Assembly (NCBI GenBank): GCA_016929655.1
Contig: JAFGIJ010000193.1
Location: forward strand, 1-35,261
DNA length: 35,261 nt
Direction of reading: 5' to 3'
Source of the DNA: Clostridia bacterium
Lineage (GTDB): Bacteria > Bacillota > Clostridia > DUPQ01
In this document: piece by piece, positions 13,850-23,370 of the stretch
Layout of the letters: every line of letters begins with the position of its first letter
How positions within the stretch are numbered: the stretch's first letter is position 1
Position numbers and translations under genes: made by a program
Notes under the pieces: model-generated
What the model was told of the DNA's origin: nothing
What the model saw: the letters and a program-made list of their open reading frames with translations, nothing else
Databases searched by the model: none

Positions 13850-14926
13850 ATGGGTGAAAAGAAAAAAACCATAGGAATTTTGACGAGCGGCGGAGATTGC
13901 CCCGGACTGAATGCAGCTATTCGTGGTGTTGCAAAACCTGCCCTTGAAGTATTCGGCATGAAGGTTTACGGTTTTTCCAATGGATATCGTGGATTGATGG
14001 AAGGTGATGCCAAGGAGTTGTTTCAAAGTGACATGTCCGGAATCCTGACAATAGGTGGCACTATTTTGGGAACGAGCCGGGAATCATTTAAAAAACTTCG
14101 CAAGAGTCCAGAATTAATCCAGAAAATGATTGACAACTATAAAAAATATGAACTTGACTGTCTTGTTGTATTGGGTGGAAATGGTACTCATAAAACAGCC
14201 AATCTACTGAGTAAAAAAGGTTTGAATGTAATTGGATTGCCAAAGACAATAGACAATGACTTATACGGAACAGATTTTACTTTTGGGTTTCATAGTGCCG
14301 TTGACATCGCAACTGGGGTAATTGACCGAATTCACTCAACTGCACAATCCCATGGACGTGTAATGATCATTGAGCTCATGGGCCACGATGCGGGTTGGCT
14401 TACTCTTTATGCGGGTATTGCCGGCGGCGCCGATGTAATCCTGATTCCAGAGCTTCCTTATTCTATTGACAGAGTCATCGAAAAGCTTCACGAAAGAGAA
14501 ACAGAAGGCAAAAAATTCTCAATAGTTGCTGTTGCTGAAGGTGCAATGACAATTGATGAAGCAAAAATGAGCCGCAAGGATTACAAGGAATATATGACTA
14601 ATCTTCCTTACCCATCCATGGGATATAAAGTAGCTGCAGAAATTGCAGCCAAGTCCTCCTTTGAAATACGTGTTACGGTTCCCGGATACCAGCAACGAGG
14701 TGGTCAGCCAAGTCCATATGACAGGGTTCTCGCAACCAAATTCGGAACATATGGTGCAGAAATGATTGCCAATAATGATTATGGTAAAATGGTATCAATA
14801 TCAGGAAATAAACTGACAGCAATACCCCTTTCAGAAGTTGCAGGTAAAGTGAAGCTTGTTCCAAGGAATCATAGTTTGATAAATTCGGGCAGACTCCTGA
14901 ATACAAGCTTTGGTCAACCCAGATAA
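13850..14926 (+). CDS. pfkA: 6-phosphofructokinase, probably ATP-dependent
   Basis: A 358-residue phosphofructokinase that converts fructose 6-phosphate to fructose 1,6-bisphosphate in glycolysis. The N-terminal phosphate loop TSGGDCPGLNAAIRG, the donor-site motif GGNGT (109-113), the catalytic PKTIDND (131-137), the substrate motif ELMGHDAGWL and the late PGYQQRGGQPSPYDR are present. Gly in GGNGT, where PPi-dependent enzymes have Asp, points to ATP. The Lys of PKTIDND occurs both in PPi enzymes and in the mixed ATP group with actinobacterial members. Asn replaces the usual Asp of GGDGS. The start follows AGGAATCGAGG. The stop is one base from the convergent mrpD stop. Confidence 0.88.
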   Translation: MGEKKKTIGILTSGGDCPGLNAAIRGVAKPALEVFGMKVYGFSNGYRGLMEGDAKELFQSDMSGILTIGGTILGTSRESFKKLRKSPELIQKMIDNYKKYELDCLVVLGGNGTHKTANLLSKKGLNVIGLPKTIDNDLYGTDFTFGFHSAVDIATGVIDRIHSTAQSHGRVMIIELMGHDAGWLTLYAGIAGGADVILIPELPYSIDRVIEKLHERETEGKKFSIVAVAEGAMTIDEAKMSRKDYKEYMTNLPYPSMGYKVAAEIAAKSSFEIRVTVPGYQQRGGQPSPYDRVLATKFGTYGAEMIANNDYGKMVSISGNKLTAIPLSEVAGKVKLVPRNHSLINSGRLLNTSFGQPR

Positions 14927-14927
14927 T

Positions 14928-16523
14928 TTACACCAGTAAATATACTGCAGCAACAAGGAATGCGAAAAACCCGGTTATACTCAATGCAATCCCGTTTATT
15001 CCAAGCTCCATGGAAAACCCATTTTGTATGAACTTGGTTTTTTTAAGATACTTAAAATAAAGAAGTTCTCCAAAACCTAAGCTGACAAAGAATATAATCA
15101 TATTCTTCAAGTACTCTACTATGCTGAAATCAATTCGATAATTAAAAATACTGCTTATAAACAAGGGCCCGGCAAATCCCATTGCAAGGCACATTACTCC
15201 CATAATGGTAACTGAAGCTTTTTTCCATATGTCAACACTGATTTTTGCCTCTCCCCTCCCACCTCTGAATATACTTGACAATTTGATGAATGAAATTATT
15301 GTACCGAAATTAATGAGTATTACTTCATACTCAAGAACCCTTCCATGAACACCACTTTCTATCATGAATTTGGAAACACTTCCATTGAATAGAGGTGCTC
15401 CGGTTATCCCAAACATGGCAGCCATCATCATTATGCTGACATATGGCATTCTTCTGAATACACCCCGAATTTTATCTATATTTCTTTCGCCGTATTTATC
15501 AGTAATTATTCCAGCTGTAAGAAAAAGCAGACTCTTAAAAATTGCATGATTGAATAAATGTAATATTCCGCCGAAATATGAGAACTGGCTCCCTGAGGTA
15601 ATACCGACGAGAACCAACCCAAGCTGGCTAATTGTGTGATATGCAAGAATGAGTTTTATATCTTTCTGCGACATGGCAAGTATAAACCCTACAATTCCTG
15701 TAGCTACACCAATTATTAAAAATATTTCATCCAGGTTTATGGCGGGCAAAAACATCTCCCTTAATTTGATAAAATGAAATATGCCTGACTTCACATACAA
15801 TGCAGAAAGTATTACAGAAACTATTGATGGCGCACTGGTCGTTGCATGTGCCTTTGGAAGCCAGCTGAATAGCGGCAGAAACGCACATTTAAGACCAACT
15901 CCCGTAATCAGAAAAGCAAATGGAAGAGCCAGCGATTTAACATCCTGAATCTTGTACATTTTAGAAGTTATTAAATCCATGTTCAAAGTTCCGAAAATCC
16001 TGTATATAAAAGCTATTCCGAAAAGGAAAAAAGTCATTGCAGCAATATTGGTAATAAGATATATCATGCCGTCATACAGGGAACTGCTGTCCTTTTTATA
16101 CATGATGAGTACAGAAACAATTATTGTGGAGACCTCTGTCAGTATATATACATTGAATAAATCCCTCGAAAGAAAAATTGCAATTATAAGAGCCTGAAGT
16201 GTTAGGGAAAAGAATATAAATAGATTATTCATGAACTTTTCCAGTATACCAAACAGGAAGCATACAAAATAAATAAATACCGTCAGTAAAACCAATGCAG
16301 CTGAAAAAGTGTCGCACCTGAGTGTAATGCCGGAAACGGTTGCAAAATTACCAAGAACAATATCGTAAGGTCCATAGAGCTGAACTATTACAAAATTATA
16401 GACAGAAAGTCCCAGAAGAGCAGCCTGAAGGAAAAAGGCAAACCACAAAATCTTCCTGTTCTTTATCAGGTATATTAATATCCCTGCAAATATCGGCACC
16501 AATATGAGTGCATATAGAATCAT
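14928..16523 (-). CDS. mrpD: Mrp/Mbh antiporter subunit D (NuoL/N-like)
   Basis: A 531-residue protein with about 14 membrane segments, of the proton-conducting antiporter family shared with complex I NuoL/M/N. The typical charged residues are visible: Glu in YILTEVSTIIVS, Lys in VGLKCAFLPLFSWLPKAHATTSAPS, and Lys in LFNHAIFKSLLFL. It corresponds to MrpD or MbhH. It is the last gene of an eight-gene minus-strand operon, with its ATG overlapping the mrpC stop as ATGA. Length is slightly above the usual ~500. The gene ends one base from the convergent pfkA with no terminator between them, so the antiporter transcript probably runs antisense into pfkA. Confidence 0.9.
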   Translation of the reverse strand: MILYALILVPIFAGILIYLIKNRKILWFAFFLQAALLGLSVYNFVIVQLYGPYDIVLGNFATVSGITLRCDTFSAALVLLTVFIYFVCFLFGILEKFMNNLFIFFSLTLQALIIAIFLSRDLFNVYILTEVSTIIVSVLIMYKKDSSSLYDGMIYLITNIAAMTFFLFGIAFIYRIFGTLNMDLITSKMYKIQDVKSLALPFAFLITGVGLKCAFLPLFSWLPKAHATTSAPSIVSVILSALYVKSGIFHFIKLREMFLPAINLDEIFLIIGVATGIVGFILAMSQKDIKLILAYHTISQLGLVLVGITSGSQFSYFGGILHLFNHAIFKSLLFLTAGIITDKYGERNIDKIRGVFRRMPYVSIMMMAAMFGITGAPLFNGSVSKFMIESGVHGRVLEYEVILINFGTIISFIKLSSIFRGGRGEAKISVDIWKKASVTIMGVMCLAMGFAGPLFISSIFNYRIDFSIVEYLKNMIIFFVSLGFGELLYFKYLKKTKFIQNGFSMELGINGIALSITGFFAFLVAAVYLLV

Positions 16524-16876
16524 CTTATATCAATTCCCCTTCTGTGCTTCATTGCCTTGGCCCAGTTGGTTGTTCCGAATTTATGGTACATTGCAATAAA
16601 CATTATAAGAGCTACCGCTGTTACGGATATTCCCACAACAATTGCAGTTATGACCAATGCCTGTGGCAGAGGATCTGCTGCAACTGCAACTTCGCCTGTA
16701 AAAATTGGCGGCATACTTTCAGCAGTTCTGTTAACAGAAAGGAAAAACAGAATTACACCCCCACCCATTATTCCAAGTGAAATTATGGTCTTAATGATAT
16801 TTCTCCTGGCACAAAGGCCGTAGACCCCTATAAAGAAAATTATTATCGCTGTGTTTTGTGCATTAATGAAACTAAT
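16520..16876 (-). CDS. mrpC: Mrp/Mbh antiporter subunit C (NuoK-like), ATT start
   Basis: A NuoK-like subunit of 118 residues if translation starts at ATT (16876). An ATG-only reading would start at 16768, give just 82 residues and lose the first membrane segment. The upstream in-frame part (INAQNTAIIIFFIGVYGL, then arginine-rich CARRNIIKTIISLGI) is the expected first helix and loop of MrpC. There is no ATG, GTG or TTG before it. AAGGAGG lies eight bases before ATT, and the ATT overlaps the TAG stop of mrpB (ATTAG). The resulting length matches MrpC (about 113-118). The start codon is inferred; the reading frame and family are clear. Confidence 0.8.
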   Translation of the reverse strand: MSFINAQNTAIIIFFIGVYGLCARRNIIKTIISLGIMGGGVILFFLSVNRTAESMPPIFTGEVAVAADPLPQALVITAIVVGISVTAVALIMFIAMYHKFGTTNWAKAMKHRRGIDIR

Positions 16877-17276
16877 CTTCTTTTCCTCCTTCTATGAATG
16901 CAAATGTATAGAAAATTACGGTAAGCCCGCTTGCAACCTTTATTCCTATAAGTATCCCTATAAGCATATTGTATATACCATTGAAGTAAGGTATAACTTC
17001 CCTGAATCCAAGAAGAATCAGCATGGAAGCCAGTGCTAGTATGAAAACCAATATCAACTTATCTATTTTTTGAATCAGATCCAGTCTTCCCATTTCCCTT
17101 GGGCTCACAAGATAACGGCACATAAATATTGCAACAAGTACTGCTCCGCCCTGGAAACCTCCCCCTGGTTGTGAAATCCCAGTCAAAATTATATACAATC
17201 CAAACAGAATTATAAGTGGGTAAATAAACTGGAGGACATCCTCTAGAATCTCTGAATGATGTCTTTCTTCATACAT
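16872..17276 (-). CDS. mrpB: Mrp/Mbh antiporter subunit B (MnhB domain)
   Basis: A membrane protein of about 134 residues with four hydrophobic segments and the MnhB signature YIILTGISQPGGGFQGGAVL near residue 35. It corresponds to MrpB or MbhF. The start at 17276 is chosen because GGGGGG lies eight bases upstream; in-frame alternatives are ATG at 17282 and a longer version overlapping the previous gene by 71 bases. The last codons (GAAGGAGGAAAAGAAGAT) serve as the ribosome site of mrpC. It belongs to the tightly overlapping antiporter operon. Confidence 0.88.
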   Translation of the reverse strand: MYEERHHSEILEDVLQFIYPLIILFGLYIILTGISQPGGGFQGGAVLVAIFMCRYLVSPREMGRLDLIQKIDKLILVFILALASMLILLGFREVIPYFNGIYNMLIGILIGIKVASGLTVIFYTFAFIEGGKED

Positions 17277-17574
17277 TCTCATCACCCCCCTTTTTCTCAA
17301 TTTCCTTTTCCCAGGGAGCTGCGAAATAGAAAACAACACTTACTGCAGCACCAAGAAGCAACGCTTCAAACAAAGTATCAAATATCCTGTACCTTAAATA
17401 TATTGCAGTAACTGCATTAGGCATCCCGGACTCCTCTGCTGCATTTTCCACATAATAATTGTAGGCAACCGGTTCCATTTTTTCATCAAATATGGTTGAA
17501 AAAATGACCACGAACAAGCAGATTACCATAATGGCTGAAAGAACAATTAATCTCCTTTTTGCATTTTTACTCAT
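17269..17574 (-). CDS. MbhE-like antiporter subunit (MrpA C-terminal equivalent)
   Basis: A 101-residue protein with two membrane segments. The central NAVTAIYLRYRIFDTLFEALLLGAAV is the hallmark of the MbhE domain, which in classical Mrp systems is fused to the C-terminus of MrpA. Here it is a separate gene, as in archaeal Mbh complexes. It overlaps the preceding DUF4040 gene by 8 bases and the following mrpB by 8 bases. The role is structural or ion-translocating within the antiporter membrane arm. Confidence 0.85.
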   Translation of the reverse strand: MSKNAKRRLIVLSAIMVICLFVVIFSTIFDEKMEPVAYNYYVENAAEESGMPNAVTAIYLRYRIFDTLFEALLLGAAVSVVFYFAAPWEKEIEKKGGDENV

Positions 17575-18133
17575 TTTCAGACCATCCTATATGCAATTCT
17601 ATTTCATAACCCAGCTTTCTCAGGTCGTTGAAATTTTCATCAATATATTTTTTCATCTCCTCTATGTGGTAATTCTGCTCCATGCCATATATTGAAAACT
17701 TATTGTTTTTTCTCCTTACGATTATATCCCAGCCGTGATTTTTCATTACCTCCTGAAGACTTTCTGTCGTATACATGATGTGAGCTTCCAAATCCTTGCC
17801 TGAACAGAAATTTTCAATTCTTTCCAATACTGCATTTCGTCTCCTGAACAAATTTGACTGTCTGTATTCATGCCTCATTTCATTTGTGTAGTACACTGTA
17901 AAGGCTTTATATTTCTGCAAAGCGGAAAGGAAGATTATCGTAGCGATGGTACTTCCGATTACCGCTTCAGCAAGGGCAGCATCCGGAGCTCCCAGTAATA
18001 CATATACAAATGCGCTTCCAGCTGAAAAAACTGCAAGATAAACAACCGCACGCCTGAGTTTCGGTGTTTGAACCGACATGAATGCAAAAATAATCAGAGC
18101 AATGTACATAATCTTTTCAACTACCGGCATCAT
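17567..18133 (-). CDS. MbhD-like (DUF4040) antiporter subunit with a C-terminal extension
   Basis: A 188-residue protein. The N-terminal ~80 residues form three membrane segments with FSAGSAFVYVLLGAPDAALAEAVIG, the DUF4040/MbhD signature, equivalent to part of the MrpA C-terminal region. Residues ~85-188 are hydrophilic and not recognised; MbhD proteins are usually only about 90-110 residues long. The extra part contains SGKDLEAHIMYTTES and ends in EIELHIGWSENE. It starts at 18133 with AGGAGG nine bases upstream, inside the end of mrpG. The extension probably forms a cytoplasmic domain of the antiporter. Confidence 0.8.
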   Translation of the reverse strand: MMPVVEKIMYIALIIFAFMSVQTPKLRRAVVYLAVFSAGSAFVYVLLGAPDAALAEAVIGSTIATIIFLSALQKYKAFTVYYTNEMRHEYRQSNLFRRRNAVLERIENFCSGKDLEAHIMYTTESLQEVMKNHGWDIIVRRKNNKFSIYGMEQNYHIEEMKKYIDENFNDLRKLGYEIELHIGWSENE

Positions 18134-18437
18134 TGTTGTCGTCCTCCTCGCTTACCCTGTAGCCTCCCCTGTAGGCAGAACTTGCAATGGCATGGGTGAC
18201 TACCGGATTTATTAGCATAACAATGGCGACTAGTAAAAGTACTTTTAGTGAGAACCAGGTGAAACCCGATCTGATAATCGCACCTGTACATATGGTAATG
18301 AAGCCGACTGTATCAACCTTTGCGCCTATAAGAATCCTTGAATAAAAATCCTTGAATCTGTATATCCCCAGAACTCCCAGTAATACAAATACTATCCCGA
18401 TACCTATTATTATATTACCTACTATTTCACGCATCAT
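18117..18437 (-). CDS. mrpG: Mrp/Mbh antiporter subunit G
   Basis: A 106-residue protein with three hydrophobic segments. The family pattern LLGVLGIYRFKDFYSRILIGAK and the downstream NPVVTHAIASSAYR fit MnhG/MrpG/MbhC. It starts at 18437 behind AGGGGGAGA, overlapping the mrpF stop by 4 bases, and overlaps the next gene by 17 bases. It is the third gene of the antiporter operon. Confidence 0.9.
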   Translation of the reverse strand: MMREIVGNIIIGIGIVFVLLGVLGIYRFKDFYSRILIGAKVDTVGFITICTGAIIRSGFTWFSLKVLLLVAIVMLINPVVTHAIASSAYRGGYRVSEEDDNNDAGS

Positions 18438-18688
18438 ATTCTCCCCCTGTCTCTAACAAATCTGGCAATAAACAGAGTGCTTACAAATCCCAGCAGAGAA
18501 TAGGTAAGAGCTATATCCAGAAGGAAATTTCGGTTAAAAAGAATGGCACACAAAACAAGTATCATTATCAATTTGGCCGAAAGTAAATTGAACCCCAAAA
18601 GTCTGTCCCATATGGTAGGACCAATCAGGATTCTCAACGATGTAATGAATGCGGCTGCAGTCATAATATGTATGAATATGTTAATCAT
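18434..18688 (-). CDS. mrpF: Mrp/Mbh antiporter subunit F
   Basis: An 84-residue protein with three membrane segments. RILIGPTIWDRLLGFNLLSAK is the MrpF/MnhF signature (R-x-x-x-GP-x-x-x-DR). It overlaps mrpE by 8 bases and mrpG by 4 bases. It is equivalent to MbhB. Confidence 0.92.
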   Translation of the reverse strand: MINIFIHIMTAAAFITSLRILIGPTIWDRLLGFNLLSAKLIMILVLCAILFNRNFLLDIALTYSLLGFVSTLFIARFVRDRGRI

Positions 18689-19178
18689 GCTTCGCCGCCT
18701 TTATCAATATTTTTTCAAGGGAACCATTTATGATTTTAGCAGCTTCAACCGGATTATTTGTCTTGCTGTTAAGGCAGAGAACCTTGATCCTCTGACCGAC
18801 CTTTTCAATTGTCACTGTTCCTGGGGTCAGGGTAATTGAGTTTGCCAGCGTTGTTGCAGCCAGACCTTCAGGCACCTTGGTTTCAATGTCTATTATTGAA
18901 GTTCTGCATCTTCCCTTTATAATATCTGGAATCGCATATAGACCTGATTTGAATATTCTAAAAAGAAGTACAATGGCAAAAACGGCAAGCATTGGAATAT
19001 TGAATCGGTATGCACTTGTCAGTTTCTCAGTTGTCAGAAAAATGTTTGCAAACAAAGCTGCTCCTGCACCAAGCAAAAGTCCGGATATAACTGTATACAG
19101 GGAAAGATTTTCGTACAGTATAACCCAAACAATCATTCCGAGTATTCCGAATTCAATATAATACAACAGTTTTTTCAT
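18681..19178 (-). CDS. mrpE: Mrp/Mbh antiporter subunit E
   Basis: A 165-residue subunit with two or three N-terminal membrane segments and a cytoplasmic C-terminal part. EGLAATTLANSITLTPGTVTIE is the MrpE signature. It is the first gene of the antiporter operon (order MrpE, F, G, MbhD-like, MbhE-like, MrpB, C, D), the same order as archaeal MbhA-H. The start at 19178 gives a complete first membrane segment but has no clear ribosome site. The predicted -10 box ends only eight bases before the ATG, so the message may be leaderless. ATG at residue 15 is an alternative start. Confidence 0.88.
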   Translation of the reverse strand: MKKLLYYIEFGILGMIVWVILYENLSLYTVISGLLLGAGAALFANIFLTTEKLTSAYRFNIPMLAVFAIVLLFRIFKSGLYAIPDIIKGRCRTSIIDIETKVPEGLAATTLANSITLTPGTVTIEKVGQRIKVLCLNSKTNNPVEAAKIINGSLEKILIKAAKHD

Positions 19179-19226: not shown

Positions 19227-20357
19227 CTATGATTTGTTATCCTTTTTCAGGGTTTGGGCTATCAGCTGCATCCTGATATAAGCATATTCGAAAAAGCCCT
19301 GGAAAGCTTTGCAGTAAATGTTCAGGTTTGTTTCAGGATTACGATATCTTCTGCAGCCATCACGGCAGATAAAGAACCATCGGCAGTTCTTGCACTCTTC
19401 ATTTATTTCGTCACCTTTTAAAAGGAATTCTGCCGTTTTAGAGCCATTTATTATATCTTCAAAACTGTTCTCCTGTACATTGCCGATGTATGTTTCATCG
19501 GTAACGTAAAAGTCGCACGGATAAACACCTCCATCAGCCTCTATAACAAACTGGCAGGCACATCTTCCGGACATTCCGCAGGATTCGGGCGGATATCCCA
19601 TTATCATGGCAATCCAGTTGTCAAATGTACGCACAACAGTTATATTTCCTGCCATAACATCATGGTGCCACGCATCGAAGGTTTTCTTTAGAAACGTTTC
19701 ATAATCATCGGATGTCAGCGAAAATTCATGCTGACCCGGTTTTTCATCAGCAGGATCAAGACATGGTATATATTGAACATATCCTATCCCCTTTTTCTTG
19801 AAGAATTCATATACTTGCTCAGGGTATTTTGCTGTTTCTGAGGTTATAACACTGAGAGCATTATATTCAACCTTGAACCGGTCAAAGAGCTTCTTTGCTT
19901 CCATAACCCTGGTAAGACTGGATTCTTCTGTCGCAAAAATTCTGTTTTTGTTATGGACTCTTGAGGGACCGTCAATGGAAAGCCCTACTAAAAATTTATT
20001 TTTGGAAAGGAATTCAGCCCATTCTTCATCAATAACAATTCCGTTTGTCTGAATTGAAAAATTGATTTTAAGATTTTTTGTATTCATTTCGTTTGTTTTG
20101 GTTGTGAAGAATCTGAAAAAATCAATGCCTGCAAGGGTTGGTTCACCGCCTTGAAATGCAAAGGACACGCCTTCTGTTGCATACTCAAAGGCCCTTTCAA
20201 TCAATTTGACTGCAGTTTCCCTTTTCATGAAACCCTTTTCATGAGTCGGATCAGGAACATCAGGTGAATGATAAAAGCAATATCTGCAGCTTAGATTGCA
20301 GTGACCGGACGATGGCTTTATAAGTACATTTATGTTTCGCTTTAGGTTGTTATTCAT
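19227..20357 (-). CDS. Anaerobic sulfatase-maturating enzyme (radical SAM/SPASM)
   Basis: A 376-residue radical SAM enzyme that oxidises the active-site Cys or Ser of sulfatases to formylglycine without oxygen. The SAM cluster motif CNLSCRYC uses Cys20, Cys24 and Cys27. GGEPTL is the SAM-contact motif, and the C-terminal SPASM region contains CGMSGRCACQFVIEADGGVYPC and CKNCRWFFICRDGC for two auxiliary [4Fe-4S] clusters. Its start overlaps the end of the preceding sulfatase by 8 bases, and two Cys-type sulfatases lie directly upstream in the same direction, which makes the assignment to the anSME group firm. Confidence 0.93.
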   Translation of the reverse strand: MNNNLKRNINVLIKPSSGHCNLSCRYCFYHSPDVPDPTHEKGFMKRETAVKLIERAFEYATEGVSFAFQGGEPTLAGIDFFRFFTTKTNEMNTKNLKINFSIQTNGIVIDEEWAEFLSKNKFLVGLSIDGPSRVHNKNRIFATEESSLTRVMEAKKLFDRFKVEYNALSVITSETAKYPEQVYEFFKKKGIGYVQYIPCLDPADEKPGQHEFSLTSDDYETFLKKTFDAWHHDVMAGNITVVRTFDNWIAMIMGYPPESCGMSGRCACQFVIEADGGVYPCDFYVTDETYIGNVQENSFEDIINGSKTAEFLLKGDEINEECKNCRWFFICRDGCRRYRNPETNLNIYCKAFQGFFEYAYIRMQLIAQTLKKDNKS

Positions 20358-21819
20358 TGTCCTGTGCCTCTTCCTTGAGTCCTGCCAGTTCTTTTTTCAA
20401 TTTTTCTCTAATTTCAAAATATTCCGGCTCGTCATATACATTCATTAACTCAGCTGAATCCTTTCCAAGGTCAAAGAGTTCCCATTCCTCCGGAGTCGGA
20501 TTGTCGATGGAACCGGATGTTCCAAGTGCTTCACCATAATAGTAAATCAGTTTATAATCCATGGTCCTGATTCCATAATGTGCAGCAACATTATGGTGTG
20601 CAAGATGCATCCAGTATCTGTAATACATGGACTGTCTCCAGTCATCAACTTTTTTCCCCTCCATAATCGGCATGAAACTTCTGCCCTGCATGAAATCCGG
20701 GCTTTTCATTCCCGCTGTATCCAGAATGGTCTGAGCAAAATCAAGGTTCAGCACCATAGCCTGAGATATTGTTCCGGGCTGGATTTTTGAGGGGTATTTG
20801 ATAATCAGAGGCATCCGAAGGGATTCCTCATACATGAATCGTTTGTCATACCATCCATGGTCACCAAGATAAAAACCCTGGTCAGATGTATAAATAACCA
20901 TTGTATCTTCAGTTAGTCCTTCGCTTTCGAGCCAGTCAAGAATTTCACCTACACTGTCATCAACTGCAGCAACGCATCTAAGATAATCCTTTATATATCT
21001 CTGGTATTTCCATTCCTTTAACGCCCTGTGGCTTTTAAATGTAACTTTTTCCCCTTCCCAGGTTGTATATTCCAATCCGGTAACATCATCGGGAATCGGA
21101 AGTGAATCCATTTTTTCATAGCCATCAGGTATTTGAATTTTTAAATCAAGGGCATTGAAATCCCTCTCCACCCTCATTTTTGCTCGTTTGGCAGCTTCCG
21201 AGCGATTGTCATATTCATCAAAGAATGTATCTGGTAGTGGTATATCTTCATCTTTGTATAAATCCTTGTGTTTATCATCAGAAAGCCATGGTCTGTGGGG
21301 TGCCTTGTGATGACACATAAGCATAAATGGTTTATCCTTATCCCTTCCCTTAAGCCATTCAATGGATTTTTTGGTTATTATGTCAGTTACATATCCGGTA
21401 AATACCTTTCTCTCGCCCATCTCAATCATAAGTGGATCAAAATAATCACCCTGATGTGGAAGAACGTTGTAATAGTCAAACCCGGTTGGATGATGCTTTT
21501 CTCCCTGGCCCAGATGCCATTTGCCTACTATTGCAGTCTGATAACCCCCGCGCTGCATTATCTTCGGAAAATTTTCAAGAGAATTGTCCAGTTTATCACC
21601 CAGGGTCTTTACTCCATTTATATGTGTATGGGTTCCCGTTAGAATAGTTGCTCTGCTGGGTGCACAAATTGAATTTGTACAAAAGCAGTTGTCAAACCTA
21701 ATACCGCCTTCTGCGATCCTGTCCATGTTTGGGGTTCGATTGATTTTGCTTCCATAGCAGCTCATGGCATGGCTGGCATGGTCGTCTGTCATTATGAATA
21801 TTATGTTGGGCTTATTCAT
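20350..21819 (-). CDS. Sulfatase, Cys-type (S1 family)
   Basis: A 489-residue arylsulfatase-type enzyme. The N-terminal FIMTDDH gives metal-binding Asp residues, and CAPSRATILTG holds the formylglycine precursor Cys52 in the standard C-x-P-S-R context. GKWHLG, HHKAPHRPW and YTSDQGFYLGDHGW supply the remaining sulfate and calcium ligands. No signal peptide is visible, so a cytoplasmic location is likely, as in bacteria that desulfate imported oligosaccharides. Insertions in the middle and a C-terminal EEWELFDLGKDSAELMNV are typical of glycan sulfatases. The gene is coupled to the maturase gene by an 8-base overlap. The substrate is unknown. Confidence 0.92.
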   Translation of the reverse strand: MNKPNIIFIMTDDHASHAMSCYGSKINRTPNMDRIAEGGIRFDNCFCTNSICAPSRATILTGTHTHINGVKTLGDKLDNSLENFPKIMQRGGYQTAIVGKWHLGQGEKHHPTGFDYYNVLPHQGDYFDPLMIEMGERKVFTGYVTDIITKKSIEWLKGRDKDKPFMLMCHHKAPHRPWLSDDKHKDLYKDEDIPLPDTFFDEYDNRSEAAKRAKMRVERDFNALDLKIQIPDGYEKMDSLPIPDDVTGLEYTTWEGEKVTFKSHRALKEWKYQRYIKDYLRCVAAVDDSVGEILDWLESEGLTEDTMVIYTSDQGFYLGDHGWYDKRFMYEESLRMPLIIKYPSKIQPGTISQAMVLNLDFAQTILDTAGMKSPDFMQGRSFMPIMEGKKVDDWRQSMYYRYWMHLAHHNVAAHYGIRTMDYKLIYYYGEALGTSGSIDNPTPEEWELFDLGKDSAELMNVYDEPEYFEIREKLKKELAGLKEEAQDNE

Positions 21820-21850
21820 CCTGCTGTCTCCTATACCTTAAAATGTGCAT

Positions 21851-21889
21851 CAATCCCTGGGATTGTGAGCGCTTTGGGCTTATGAGCGC
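21851..21889. repeat. Two small hairpins between the sulfatase genes
   Basis: CAATCC (21851-21856) pairs with GGATTG (21860-21865) around CTG. GCGCT (21869-21873) pairs with AGCGC (21885-21889). TGAGCGC also occurs twice in direct orientation, 17 bases apart. The core CCCTGGGAT resembles the palindromes at 4444-4500 and 13717-13747. There is no T-run, so it may be an mRNA-processing or attenuating element rather than a terminator. Confidence 0.6.
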
Positions 21890-21921
21890 CTTGGATTATG
21901 CGAACAAAAACTATTTCACAT

Positions 21922-23370
21922 TCACGAAGTGTATCCAATTATATCAGGAACTGAGCCTTCCGCATCCTGATATAAGAGGCCTTCATCTTCACTTTTATAT
22001 TCGTCAGGTTTTCTTATTTTTTTGAAATGGTTTTTTTCTACAGCATCACTCTCCTTGCTGTGCTTTAAAACCTCAACTAATTTTTCGCGCATTTCCTTTG
22101 CTTTCTCTCCATATATGATATTCTCAGCCCTGTTATGACACTCCATTGGGTCAGCCTTTTTATCAATAAGCCACTCCTTGTTGTCGGGGGTTGAGTGAAA
22201 ATACTTGTAGTTTTCTTCAACAATCATATACATTCCCTTGTCGCCGGTGTGATATTGGCTGACAATCGATCTGCTATACTCTTCATCATATAGATTAGAC
22301 CCGTCATAACTTTCATCACCCTCTATTCCGGCATAATCAAGGATGGTCGGAACAATGTCAACCAATGAAACAGGTTCTTCACACTTTACCCCCTGCTTGA
22401 TTCCGGGCCATCTGACAATCAATGGAACCCTGACCGCAGGGTCAAGAAATCCCCTTTTACCATAACAATTGAAGTCTCCGAGCATTTCGCCATGGTCGGA
22501 AGTATATATAATCAAGGTATCATCAAATATATTTTCTTCCTTGAGTTTATCAAATATTCTACCGACATTGAAGTCAATGAATGATATACATGCATAATAA
22601 TATGCCTTGATCATTCGCTCAAGTTCCATATCGCGTCCCTTGCTTTTATACTTATAACGGTTTTGTATCCTATTCCAGTAAGTCTGCATGGATTCCGGAT
22701 TTCCCGGCACAAACGGGTAATCCATATCAGGTGACCTATAGAGTTTATTCCATGGCACAGGAACTTCAAATGGAGGATGAGGTTTTATGATTCCACACAT
22801 AAGAAACATAGGTTTTGTTTTATCTCTGTTTTCAATCATTTCTATGCTTCTGTCAGCAGCCCATGTAGTGTGATGGTGCTCTGCCGGAAGCTGTGACGGC
22901 TGTGGGATATAGTACATCTCACTTCTGACTCCATGAACATCCTTGACATAGCCAAACCCCTTATCCATGAGATAATCTTTGTAATCATCCCGTTTTGCTC
23001 CGTTTACCTCCTCGCTTGTATAGCGTTTATCAAACCCCCACAAAGCCATGGTTCCGCCATCTCTGAAATTGAAATGCATCTTGCCGACTCCAAAAGTCTG
23101 GTATCCTGCTTTTTTCAAAGTTTGCATTACACTTTCATTGCCATCGGGCATCATACCATTCTTACTGCATCCGGTGTTGTGGCAATACTTACCTGTGAGT
23201 GTCGAATACCTGGCCGGAACACATACAGGACTTGGAGTATAAGCTTCCTTGAAAGAAGTACCGTCCTTCACAAGAGAATCAAGTACCGGGGTTTTTATTT
23301 TTTTATTTCCGAGCGAGTGAATTGTGTCATATCTTTGCTGATCCGTCATTATCAGTAAAACATTTTTCAT
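21922..23370 (-). CDS. Sulfatase, Cys-type (S1 family)
   Basis: A 482-residue sulfatase starting MKNVLLIMTDQQRYD. Cys50 in SPVCVPARYSTLTG is the formylglycine site; the motif is C-V-P-A-R, a common variant of C-x-P-S-R. GKMHFNF, IIKPHPPFEVP and TSDHGEMLGDFNCYGKRG complete the active site. As in its neighbour there is no signal peptide. The ribosome site AAGGAAAGGTGAT precedes the start. It lies 29 bases after the last pilus-type gene without an evident terminator and is separated from the second sulfatase by 102 bases with hairpins. The two sulfatases differ clearly in sequence and probably cut different positions of the same glycan. Confidence 0.9.
   Translation of the reverse strand: MKNVLLIMTDQQRYDTIHSLGNKKIKTPVLDSLVKDGTSFKEAYTPSPVCVPARYSTLTGKYCHNTGCSKNGMMPDGNESVMQTLKKAGYQTFGVGKMHFNFRDGGTMALWGFDKRYTSEEVNGAKRDDYKDYLMDKGFGYVKDVHGVRSEMYYIPQPSQLPAEHHHTTWAADRSIEMIENRDKTKPMFLMCGIIKPHPPFEVPVPWNKLYRSPDMDYPFVPGNPESMQTYWNRIQNRYKYKSKGRDMELERMIKAYYYACISFIDFNVGRIFDKLKEENIFDDTLIIYTSDHGEMLGDFNCYGKRGFLDPAVRVPLIVRWPGIKQGVKCEEPVSLVDIVPTILDYAGIEGDESYDGSNLYDEEYSRSIVSQYHTGDKGMYMIVEENYKYFHSTPDNKEWLIDKKADPMECHNRAENIIYGEKAKEMREKLVEVLKHSKESDAVEKNHFKKIRKPDEYKSEDEGLLYQDAEGSVPDIIGYTS

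Follow-up and report, generated by a model that had tools for sequence, protein, structure and literature searches.

A stretch of 35,261 nucleotides (positions 1 to 35,261) of contig JAFGIJ010000193.1 of a Clostridia bacterium (assembly GCA_016929655.1), called the window below, carries on its minus strand between positions 14928 and 19178 eight tightly packed genes, mrpE, mrpF, mrpG, MbhD/DUF4040, mbhE, mrpB, mrpC and mrpD, several of whose ends overlap. This gene order is that of mbhA-H. The parts of the operon and the matches that identify them are as follows:

18681-19178, minus strand: mrpE (mbhA homologue), 165 aa; PF01899 (MNHE) 2.5e-22; best solved match MBS chain A, 1.2e-9; LTPGT motif kept.
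18434-18688, minus strand: mrpF (mbhB homologue), 84 aa; PF04066 (MrpF) 7.5e-16; 6cfw_B 8.7e-11; Asn34 at the Asp site.
18117-18437, minus strand: mrpG (mbhC homologue), 106 aa; PF03334 (MnhG) 3.8e-21; 6u8y_C 5.6e-11; Pro78 (P86g) conserved.
17567-18133, minus strand: MbhD/DUF4040, the first half of the C-terminal part of MrpA, 188 aa; PF13244 1e-15; by profile, 6u8y_D 1.5e-14 and 6cfw_D 2.9e-10; Glu56 at the E706a/E69 site.
17567-17908, minus strand: extra soluble C-terminal domain of MbhD, from residue 76 to 188; alpha/beta fold by prediction; conserved across an alignment of 40 homologues.
17269-17574, minus strand: MbhE, the second half of the C-terminal part of MrpA, 101 aa; 6cfw_E 1.5e-7; C-terminal parts of MrpA; PF20501 below threshold; Asp66 and Glu70 at the D792/E796 sites, invariant.
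16872-17282, minus strand: mrpB (mbhF homologue), ~136 aa; PF04039 (MnhB) 1.6e-14; 6u8y_E 7e-8; reading frame open to a GTG at 17339.
16520-16876, minus strand: mrpC (mbhG homologue), ~118 aa; PF00420 (Oxidored_q2) 4.6e-23; 6u8y_G 1.3e-19; probable ATT start with GGAGG upstream.
14928-16523, minus strand: mrpD (mbhH homologue), 531 aa, the operon's one antiporter-like subunit; PF00361 (Proton_antipo_M) 1.4e-49; 6cfw_H 2.9e-38; E130, K212, K245, H326, K330 and K385 kept.

Seven of the eight subunits lie above their Pfam cut-offs and MbhE slightly under its own (PF20501, 24 versus 27 bits); MbhE aligns with chain E of MBH and, across three Mrp structures, with the MrpA C-terminal part. Each subunit has its closest solved relative among the chains of MBH (6CFW) or MBS (6U8Y); the classical Mrp structures come after these. 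A sequence-only reading of this stretch had seen in the order E, F, G, DUF4040, MbhE, B, C, D that of the archaeal MbhA-H, with the C-terminal part of MrpA split into two genes and with neither the large NuoL-like domain of MrpA nor the hydrogenase genes MbhI-N; Pfam, structure matches, gene position and strand agree with that order, MbhD and MbhE are indeed separate genes, and neither a NuoL-like MrpA gene nor any of MbhI-N was found in the window, in which an Rfam scan also gave no match. Group 3 Mrp complexes are defined by their missing MrpA, and the mrpEFGBB'CD operon of Pyrococcus furiosus has been studied as such (PMC8415708). Our operon has E, F, G, MbhD plus MbhE, B, C and D in order, no NuoL-like MrpA and no linked redox genes.

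Does the operon work with a MrpA or a redox partner encoded elsewhere? The most direct answer comes from eight relatives that are 96-100% complete (G047, G072, G074, G117, G168, G188, G295 and G329), in each of which the MrpD of the operon is the sole Proton_antipo_M (PF00361) protein and in none of which a NuoH-type (PF00146) family member was found. Genomes with neither a second PF00361 protein nor NuoH have no partner of the complex I or MBH type and no MrpA, so the operon stands alone in them. The sequence-only reading had left two possibilities, a stand-alone Na+/H+ module or pairing with a redox partner encoded elsewhere; the former is supported by these eight genomes, and the latter is disfavoured by them and by the Mbx-like complex of the source genome (below), which has its own antiporter module. 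In none of the relatives fetched does a complete mrpA adjoin the operon.

Phylogeny of MrpD, which the sequence-only reading had called for, separates these operons from both MBH and classical Mrp. In a maximum-likelihood tree of 63 proteins (a quick search, with four Protein Data Bank (PDB) chains entered as aligned stretches), all 38 MrpD proteins of the operon type fall on one side of a branch with an SH-aLRT support of 100, which divides them from MBH, MBS/Mbx, Bacillus-type MrpD and the NuoL-like proteins; the placement of this clade among the outer groups is weakly supported. An Archaeoglobaceae locus (L122), which appears to have the seven-gene form of the P. furiosus operon with MbhD and MbhE fused, falls inside the clade.

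Relatives were sought with the MbhD protein, followed by an alignment scan of named genomes. Of 11 genomes in the same family the protein search found them in 7, and of 391 genomes sampled from the class in 21, a few of the latter being short-domain matches. A scan with a single protein as query gave no confirmed relative; the alignment query did find them. All fetched seed loci have the order E-F-G-DUF-MbhE-B-C-D wherever the contig is long enough. Among 58 named loci, which include most of the seed loci under other identifiers, the eight-gene order is uninterrupted in 46; in the remainder a contig end intervenes, overlapping stop-to-stop frames alter the sort order, or MbhE is fused or goes undetected. 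NuoH, NuoB and NuoD are absent within 8 kb at all 58. The operon is spread over Clostridia, Spirochaetota and others: named loci are from Acetobacterium, Alkalibacter, Alkalibaculum, Fusibacter, Vallitalea, Petroclostridium, Anaerotalea, Proteocatella, Mobilitalea, Butyricicoccus, Eisenbergiella and Facklamia, and further ones are from several Spirochaetales metagenome-assembled genomes (MAGs), one Thermotogaceae MAG and one Archaeoglobaceae MAG.

Most of the published key residues are in place. MrpD E130 (helix 5), K212 (helix 7), K245 (helix 8), H326, K330 and K385 are present in 21 of 21 seed sequences, and these include the proton-path Glu and Lys residues of Mrp (CPA3) antiporters (E130, K212, K245 and K385). 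MbhD Glu56 (E706 of MrpA) is kept in all but one seed sequence and two named loci, which have Gln instead. Also kept are MbhE Asp66 and Glu70 (D792 and E796), MrpG Pro78, MrpE Pro119 and MrpB Phe45; the roles of the cation-side and related key Mrp residues have been described (PMC7419157, PMC9568556).

Gene content and order, the absence of MrpA and of redox partners, the distinct MrpD clade and the conserved residues are all observed, and we read the operon, with a probability of about 0.77, as a stand-alone, MrpA-less (group 3) Mrp cation/proton antiporter. Very likely it exchanges Na+ for H+; this, like the ion, the stoichiometry and the role of the extra MbhD domain, we infer. By analogy with the Mrp structures, MrpD would be the only proton-carrying antiporter-like subunit and would provide one proton path. 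It would abut MrpC, MbhD and MbhE, with MbhD Glu56 and MrpD Glu130 as the presumed point of Na+/H+ coupling, and the cation path would be made up of MbhE together with MrpB, E, F and G. The exchange, of Na+ or some other monovalent cation for H+, would be powered by the two ion gradients alone with no redox or MrpA module. Because there would be one proton path and not two, MrpA being absent, the exchange ratio should be lower, with fewer protons per Na+ than in classical Mrp and perhaps near electroneutrality. The complex may help to keep pH and Na+ in balance, or convert one of the two gradients (Na+ or H+) into the other, in anaerobes that ferment or are acetogenic and have Rnf-type pumps. 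RnfD/NqrB-type proteins were found in 18 of the 18 genomes searched, and the c-subunits of several of these genomes have what we take to be Na+-ligand-like patterns, so a Na+/H+ exchanger would be physiologically sensible in them.

Several points weigh against this reading. Classical Mrp needs MrpA, and the lack of mrpA from a source genome that is 89% complete is in itself a weak argument, which the near-complete relatives have to carry. The site in MrpC equivalent to H40 is hydrophobic. The Asp that MrpF contributes to the proposed Na+ path, which has been termed invariably conserved (D35 in Anoxybacillus; D35L is reported to be inactive; PMC7419157) though it does not serve to define the family, is replaced throughout these operons: the residue is Asn in 19 of 19 seed operons, and Asn in 54, Ser in 2 and Gly in 2 of the 58 named loci. 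All five solved F subunits have Asp at this site, as does the Mbx MrpF of the source genome. The changes in MrpF and MrpC could mean that the cation, the affinity or the path differs.

The missing MrpF aspartate and the extra MbhD domain suggest a different view, that a complex of the same build moves not Na+ but K+ or Ca2+, or is a gated cation channel or a sensor and not an antiporter. K+- or Ca2+-moving Mrp complexes are known (PMC5703873), and the replacement of the MrpF Asp by Asn, Ser or Gly extends to every family sequence scored. We nevertheless consider it unlikely, for the MbhD Glu and the MbhE Asp and Glu at the proposed Na+ sites are retained. The c-subunits mentioned above, with what are presumably Na+-type ligand patterns, speak against it as well. 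Moreover, the Asp to Asn change in Bacillus subtilis MrpF has a mild effect and is tolerated in B. subtilis itself (PMC7419157), so the MrpF change need not mean loss of function.

Could the operon instead supply the membrane part of a complex driven by redox chemistry, with the hydrogenase-like or NuoH-type partner encoded at another place in the genome? Its gene order is the same as mbhA-H, all its subunits are nearest to MBH or MBS among solved structures, and the source genome does hold NuoH, NuoB, NuoC and NuoD homologues on other contigs. A protein-family search of that genome (229 contigs) for Mbs/Mbx homologues and mrpA, as the sequence-only reading had suggested, found no mrpA, only two MnhE genes and three Proton_antipo_M proteins, namely the MrpD of the window and two on contig C165, where they belong to an Mbx-like operon with antiporter genes of its own. 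Contig C165 (L004, 1-7350) breaks off within NuoC; ahead of that it has mrpE-F-G, a short DUF4040, MbhE fused to MrpB, mrpC, a D subunit of 480 aa, a second antiporter subunit of 609 aa, NuoH and NuoB. Contig C105 (L009, 2332-5622) carries on with NuoC, a NuoD-like subunit of 371 aa and a NuoI-GltD-like fusion of 607 aa; together the two contigs have the gene order of MBS/Mbx. The Nuo genes thus share one operon with their own antiporter genes, and since the Mbx-like redox complex has its own module, the operon in the window is independent of it and the second in the genome. The NuoD-like (Mbx large) subunit, as read from its sequence, has single cysteines where hydrogenases carry CxxC pairs and so is not hydrogenase-like. 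Pairing of the window operon with orphan hydrogenase or Mbx genes was therefore rejected: the Mbx operon has its own antiporter genes, and the eight near-complete genomes, with the operon and no NuoH family member, mostly refute a redox partner, which we regard as highly improbable. The Mbx/MBS-like complex with its NuoI-GltD-like fusion is probably of the ferredoxin:NAD(P) type, and its operon is also present, whole or in part, in four other genomes (G005, G006, G008 and G009; L055-L058).

Just as improbable is an ordinary Mrp put together from two loci with a distant MrpA/NuoL-like protein, since, despite extra MrpD/NuoL-like genes elsewhere in some relatives (G183 and G336) and a bacterial MAG, Unc8, reported with MrpEFGBBBCD plus MrpDD (PMC6305446), the additional antiporter proteins of these two relatives are in separate clusters, that of G183 and one of those of G336 being a complete second Mrp cluster with its own E-F-G-DUF-MbhE-B-C and NuoL-like gene, and a second PF00361 protein is wholly absent from the eight near-complete genomes. 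A hidden mrpA was accordingly discarded, none being present in the source genome or in those eight.

The MbhD protein has 188 aa against ~95 in MBH, the surplus being a C-terminal domain of ~110 residues (76-188) with the consensus ILxxIExFCxxxELEPQIIYT...YDLII...YGxxxNY in the 40 homologues. AlphaFold2 predicts its structure with good confidence, at a pLDDT of 86 and a pTM of 0.79. No Pfam or NCBIfam family scored over its cut-off, a sequence search of the PDB gave nothing significant, and Foldseek against the PDB gave no fold match at E <= 0.001. Positively charged residues lie in the loop after helix 1 and in that after helix 3, from which the domain is probably cytoplasmic, where it may regulate or sense.

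The starts of two genes required closer inspection. That of mrpB is probably at 17282. No ATG, GTG or TTG occurs in mrpC ahead of residue ~37, and its start is most likely the ATT at 16876-16874, inside the stop codon of mrpB: between 16870 and 16890 this ATT overlaps the mrpB stop (gATTAG), and GGAGG precedes it at start-codon distance. A Shine-Dalgarno sequence followed by ATTAA or ATTAG is found at the mrpB/mrpC junction in 6 of 6 genomes of the family (the window and L036-L040), which suggests an AUU or stop-coupled start. Against an AUU start, one of these loci (L036) also has a GTG close by, and conservation of the end of mrpB may explain part of the conservation of the ATT.

On the other side of mrpD, pfkA (13850-14926, plus strand) ends one base from the end of the operon, with HydABC beyond it; the sequence-only reading's description of an operon facing a soluble HydABC and pfkA is correct, the arrangement being convergent. 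A functional tie to these neighbours was rejected, as HydABC is common only to the same genus and pfkA to the family, and other families have neighbours that are unrelated, apart from the HydABC of Alkalibaculum (below). Upstream on the same strand (19227-23370) lie genes for two sulfatases and for an anaerobic sulfatase maturase; the maturase gene ends just 48 bases from mrpE. In Alkalibaculum sporogenes (L047, 3148-6670) HydABC lies ~1.7 kb upstream of the operon in the same direction, and in Alkalibacter-type genomes (L044-L046) the operon comes after a pst-phoU-like phosphate uptake operon.

Variants of the operon were also seen. Tandem or extra mrpD copies stand beside an otherwise identical operon in three lineages (L037, 10598-13880; L046, 5117-8336; L109), and one Clostridia MAG (L117, 2652-11000) has two complete eight-gene operons in tandem. 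In gut MAGs (L126, L128, L129, L131 and L136) DUF4040, MbhE and MrpB are apparently fused into ~320 aa, with MrpF Asn or Ser here too. Another clostridial type of Mrp, E-F-G-DUF(81 aa)-MbhE-B-C-D-D-NuoL (L188, 1965-9300; L189, 1787-9450), has the N-terminal part of MrpA as a gene of its own, plus a second MrpD.

How does the operon compare with known systems? It is a variant, widespread among bacteria, of a type of Mrp already known, and its closest described counterpart is the stand-alone Mrp of P. furiosus (Pf1147-1153), which likewise has no MrpA, no redox module, the same subunit order and one MrpD, and which guards against acidification and uses Na+, its deletion phenotype being one of Na+-linked pH homeostasis (PMC8415708). 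Compared by that description, our operon differs in its separate MbhD and MbhE genes and ~110-aa soluble MbhD domain, perhaps in MrpF Asn for Asp, in its bacterial spread and in that the genomes often have no Proton_antipo_M protein besides its MrpD. MBH of P. furiosus (MbhA-N, 6CFW) shares the A-H order, but the window operon is without MbhI-N and its MrpD is in a separate clade. MBS/Mbx (6U8Y) and the C165 plus C105 operon have the same antiporter subunits, but Mbx adds the MbhE-MrpB fusion, a second large antiporter subunit H', NuoH/B/C/D and the NuoI-GltD-like fusion, all of which the window operon lacks. Group 1 and 2 Mrp complexes (Bacillus, Anoxybacillus and Dietzia; 7QRU, 6Z16 and 7D3U) share subunits B-G and the C-terminal part of MrpA; unlike them, the window operon has no MrpA of ~770 or more aa bearing a NuoL-like N-terminal part, and its order differs. 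Natranaerobius thermophilus was rejected as a bacterial precedent, since a review cites three mrpB genes for it but the original paper describes only the single-gene antiporter Nt-Nha. In the open-access literature, which is weak evidence on this point, we found no study of the bacterial MrpA-less clade, of genomes with a sole antiporter of this kind, of the MrpF change or of the MbhD domain.

More tentatively, and with somewhat less than even confidence, we propose that these operons form a widespread, distinct clade whose Mrp antiporters are minimal, having only one proton channel, altered cation entry (MrpF Asp to Asn) and control by the soluble MbhD domain. If true, they would be a natural test of the need for MrpA in antiport and of how the number of protons per sodium depends on the number of antiporter subunits. 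The clade-wide change of the MrpF aspartate is a specific test of the published Na+ pathway. The questions of which Mrp subunit carries protons, which carries Na+ and what MrpA contributes also concern complex I, and the presence of a Mrp with one antiporter subunit in cultured bacteria (Acetobacterium dehalogenans, Alkalibacter mobilis and Acetivibrio alkalicellulosi) makes them testable.

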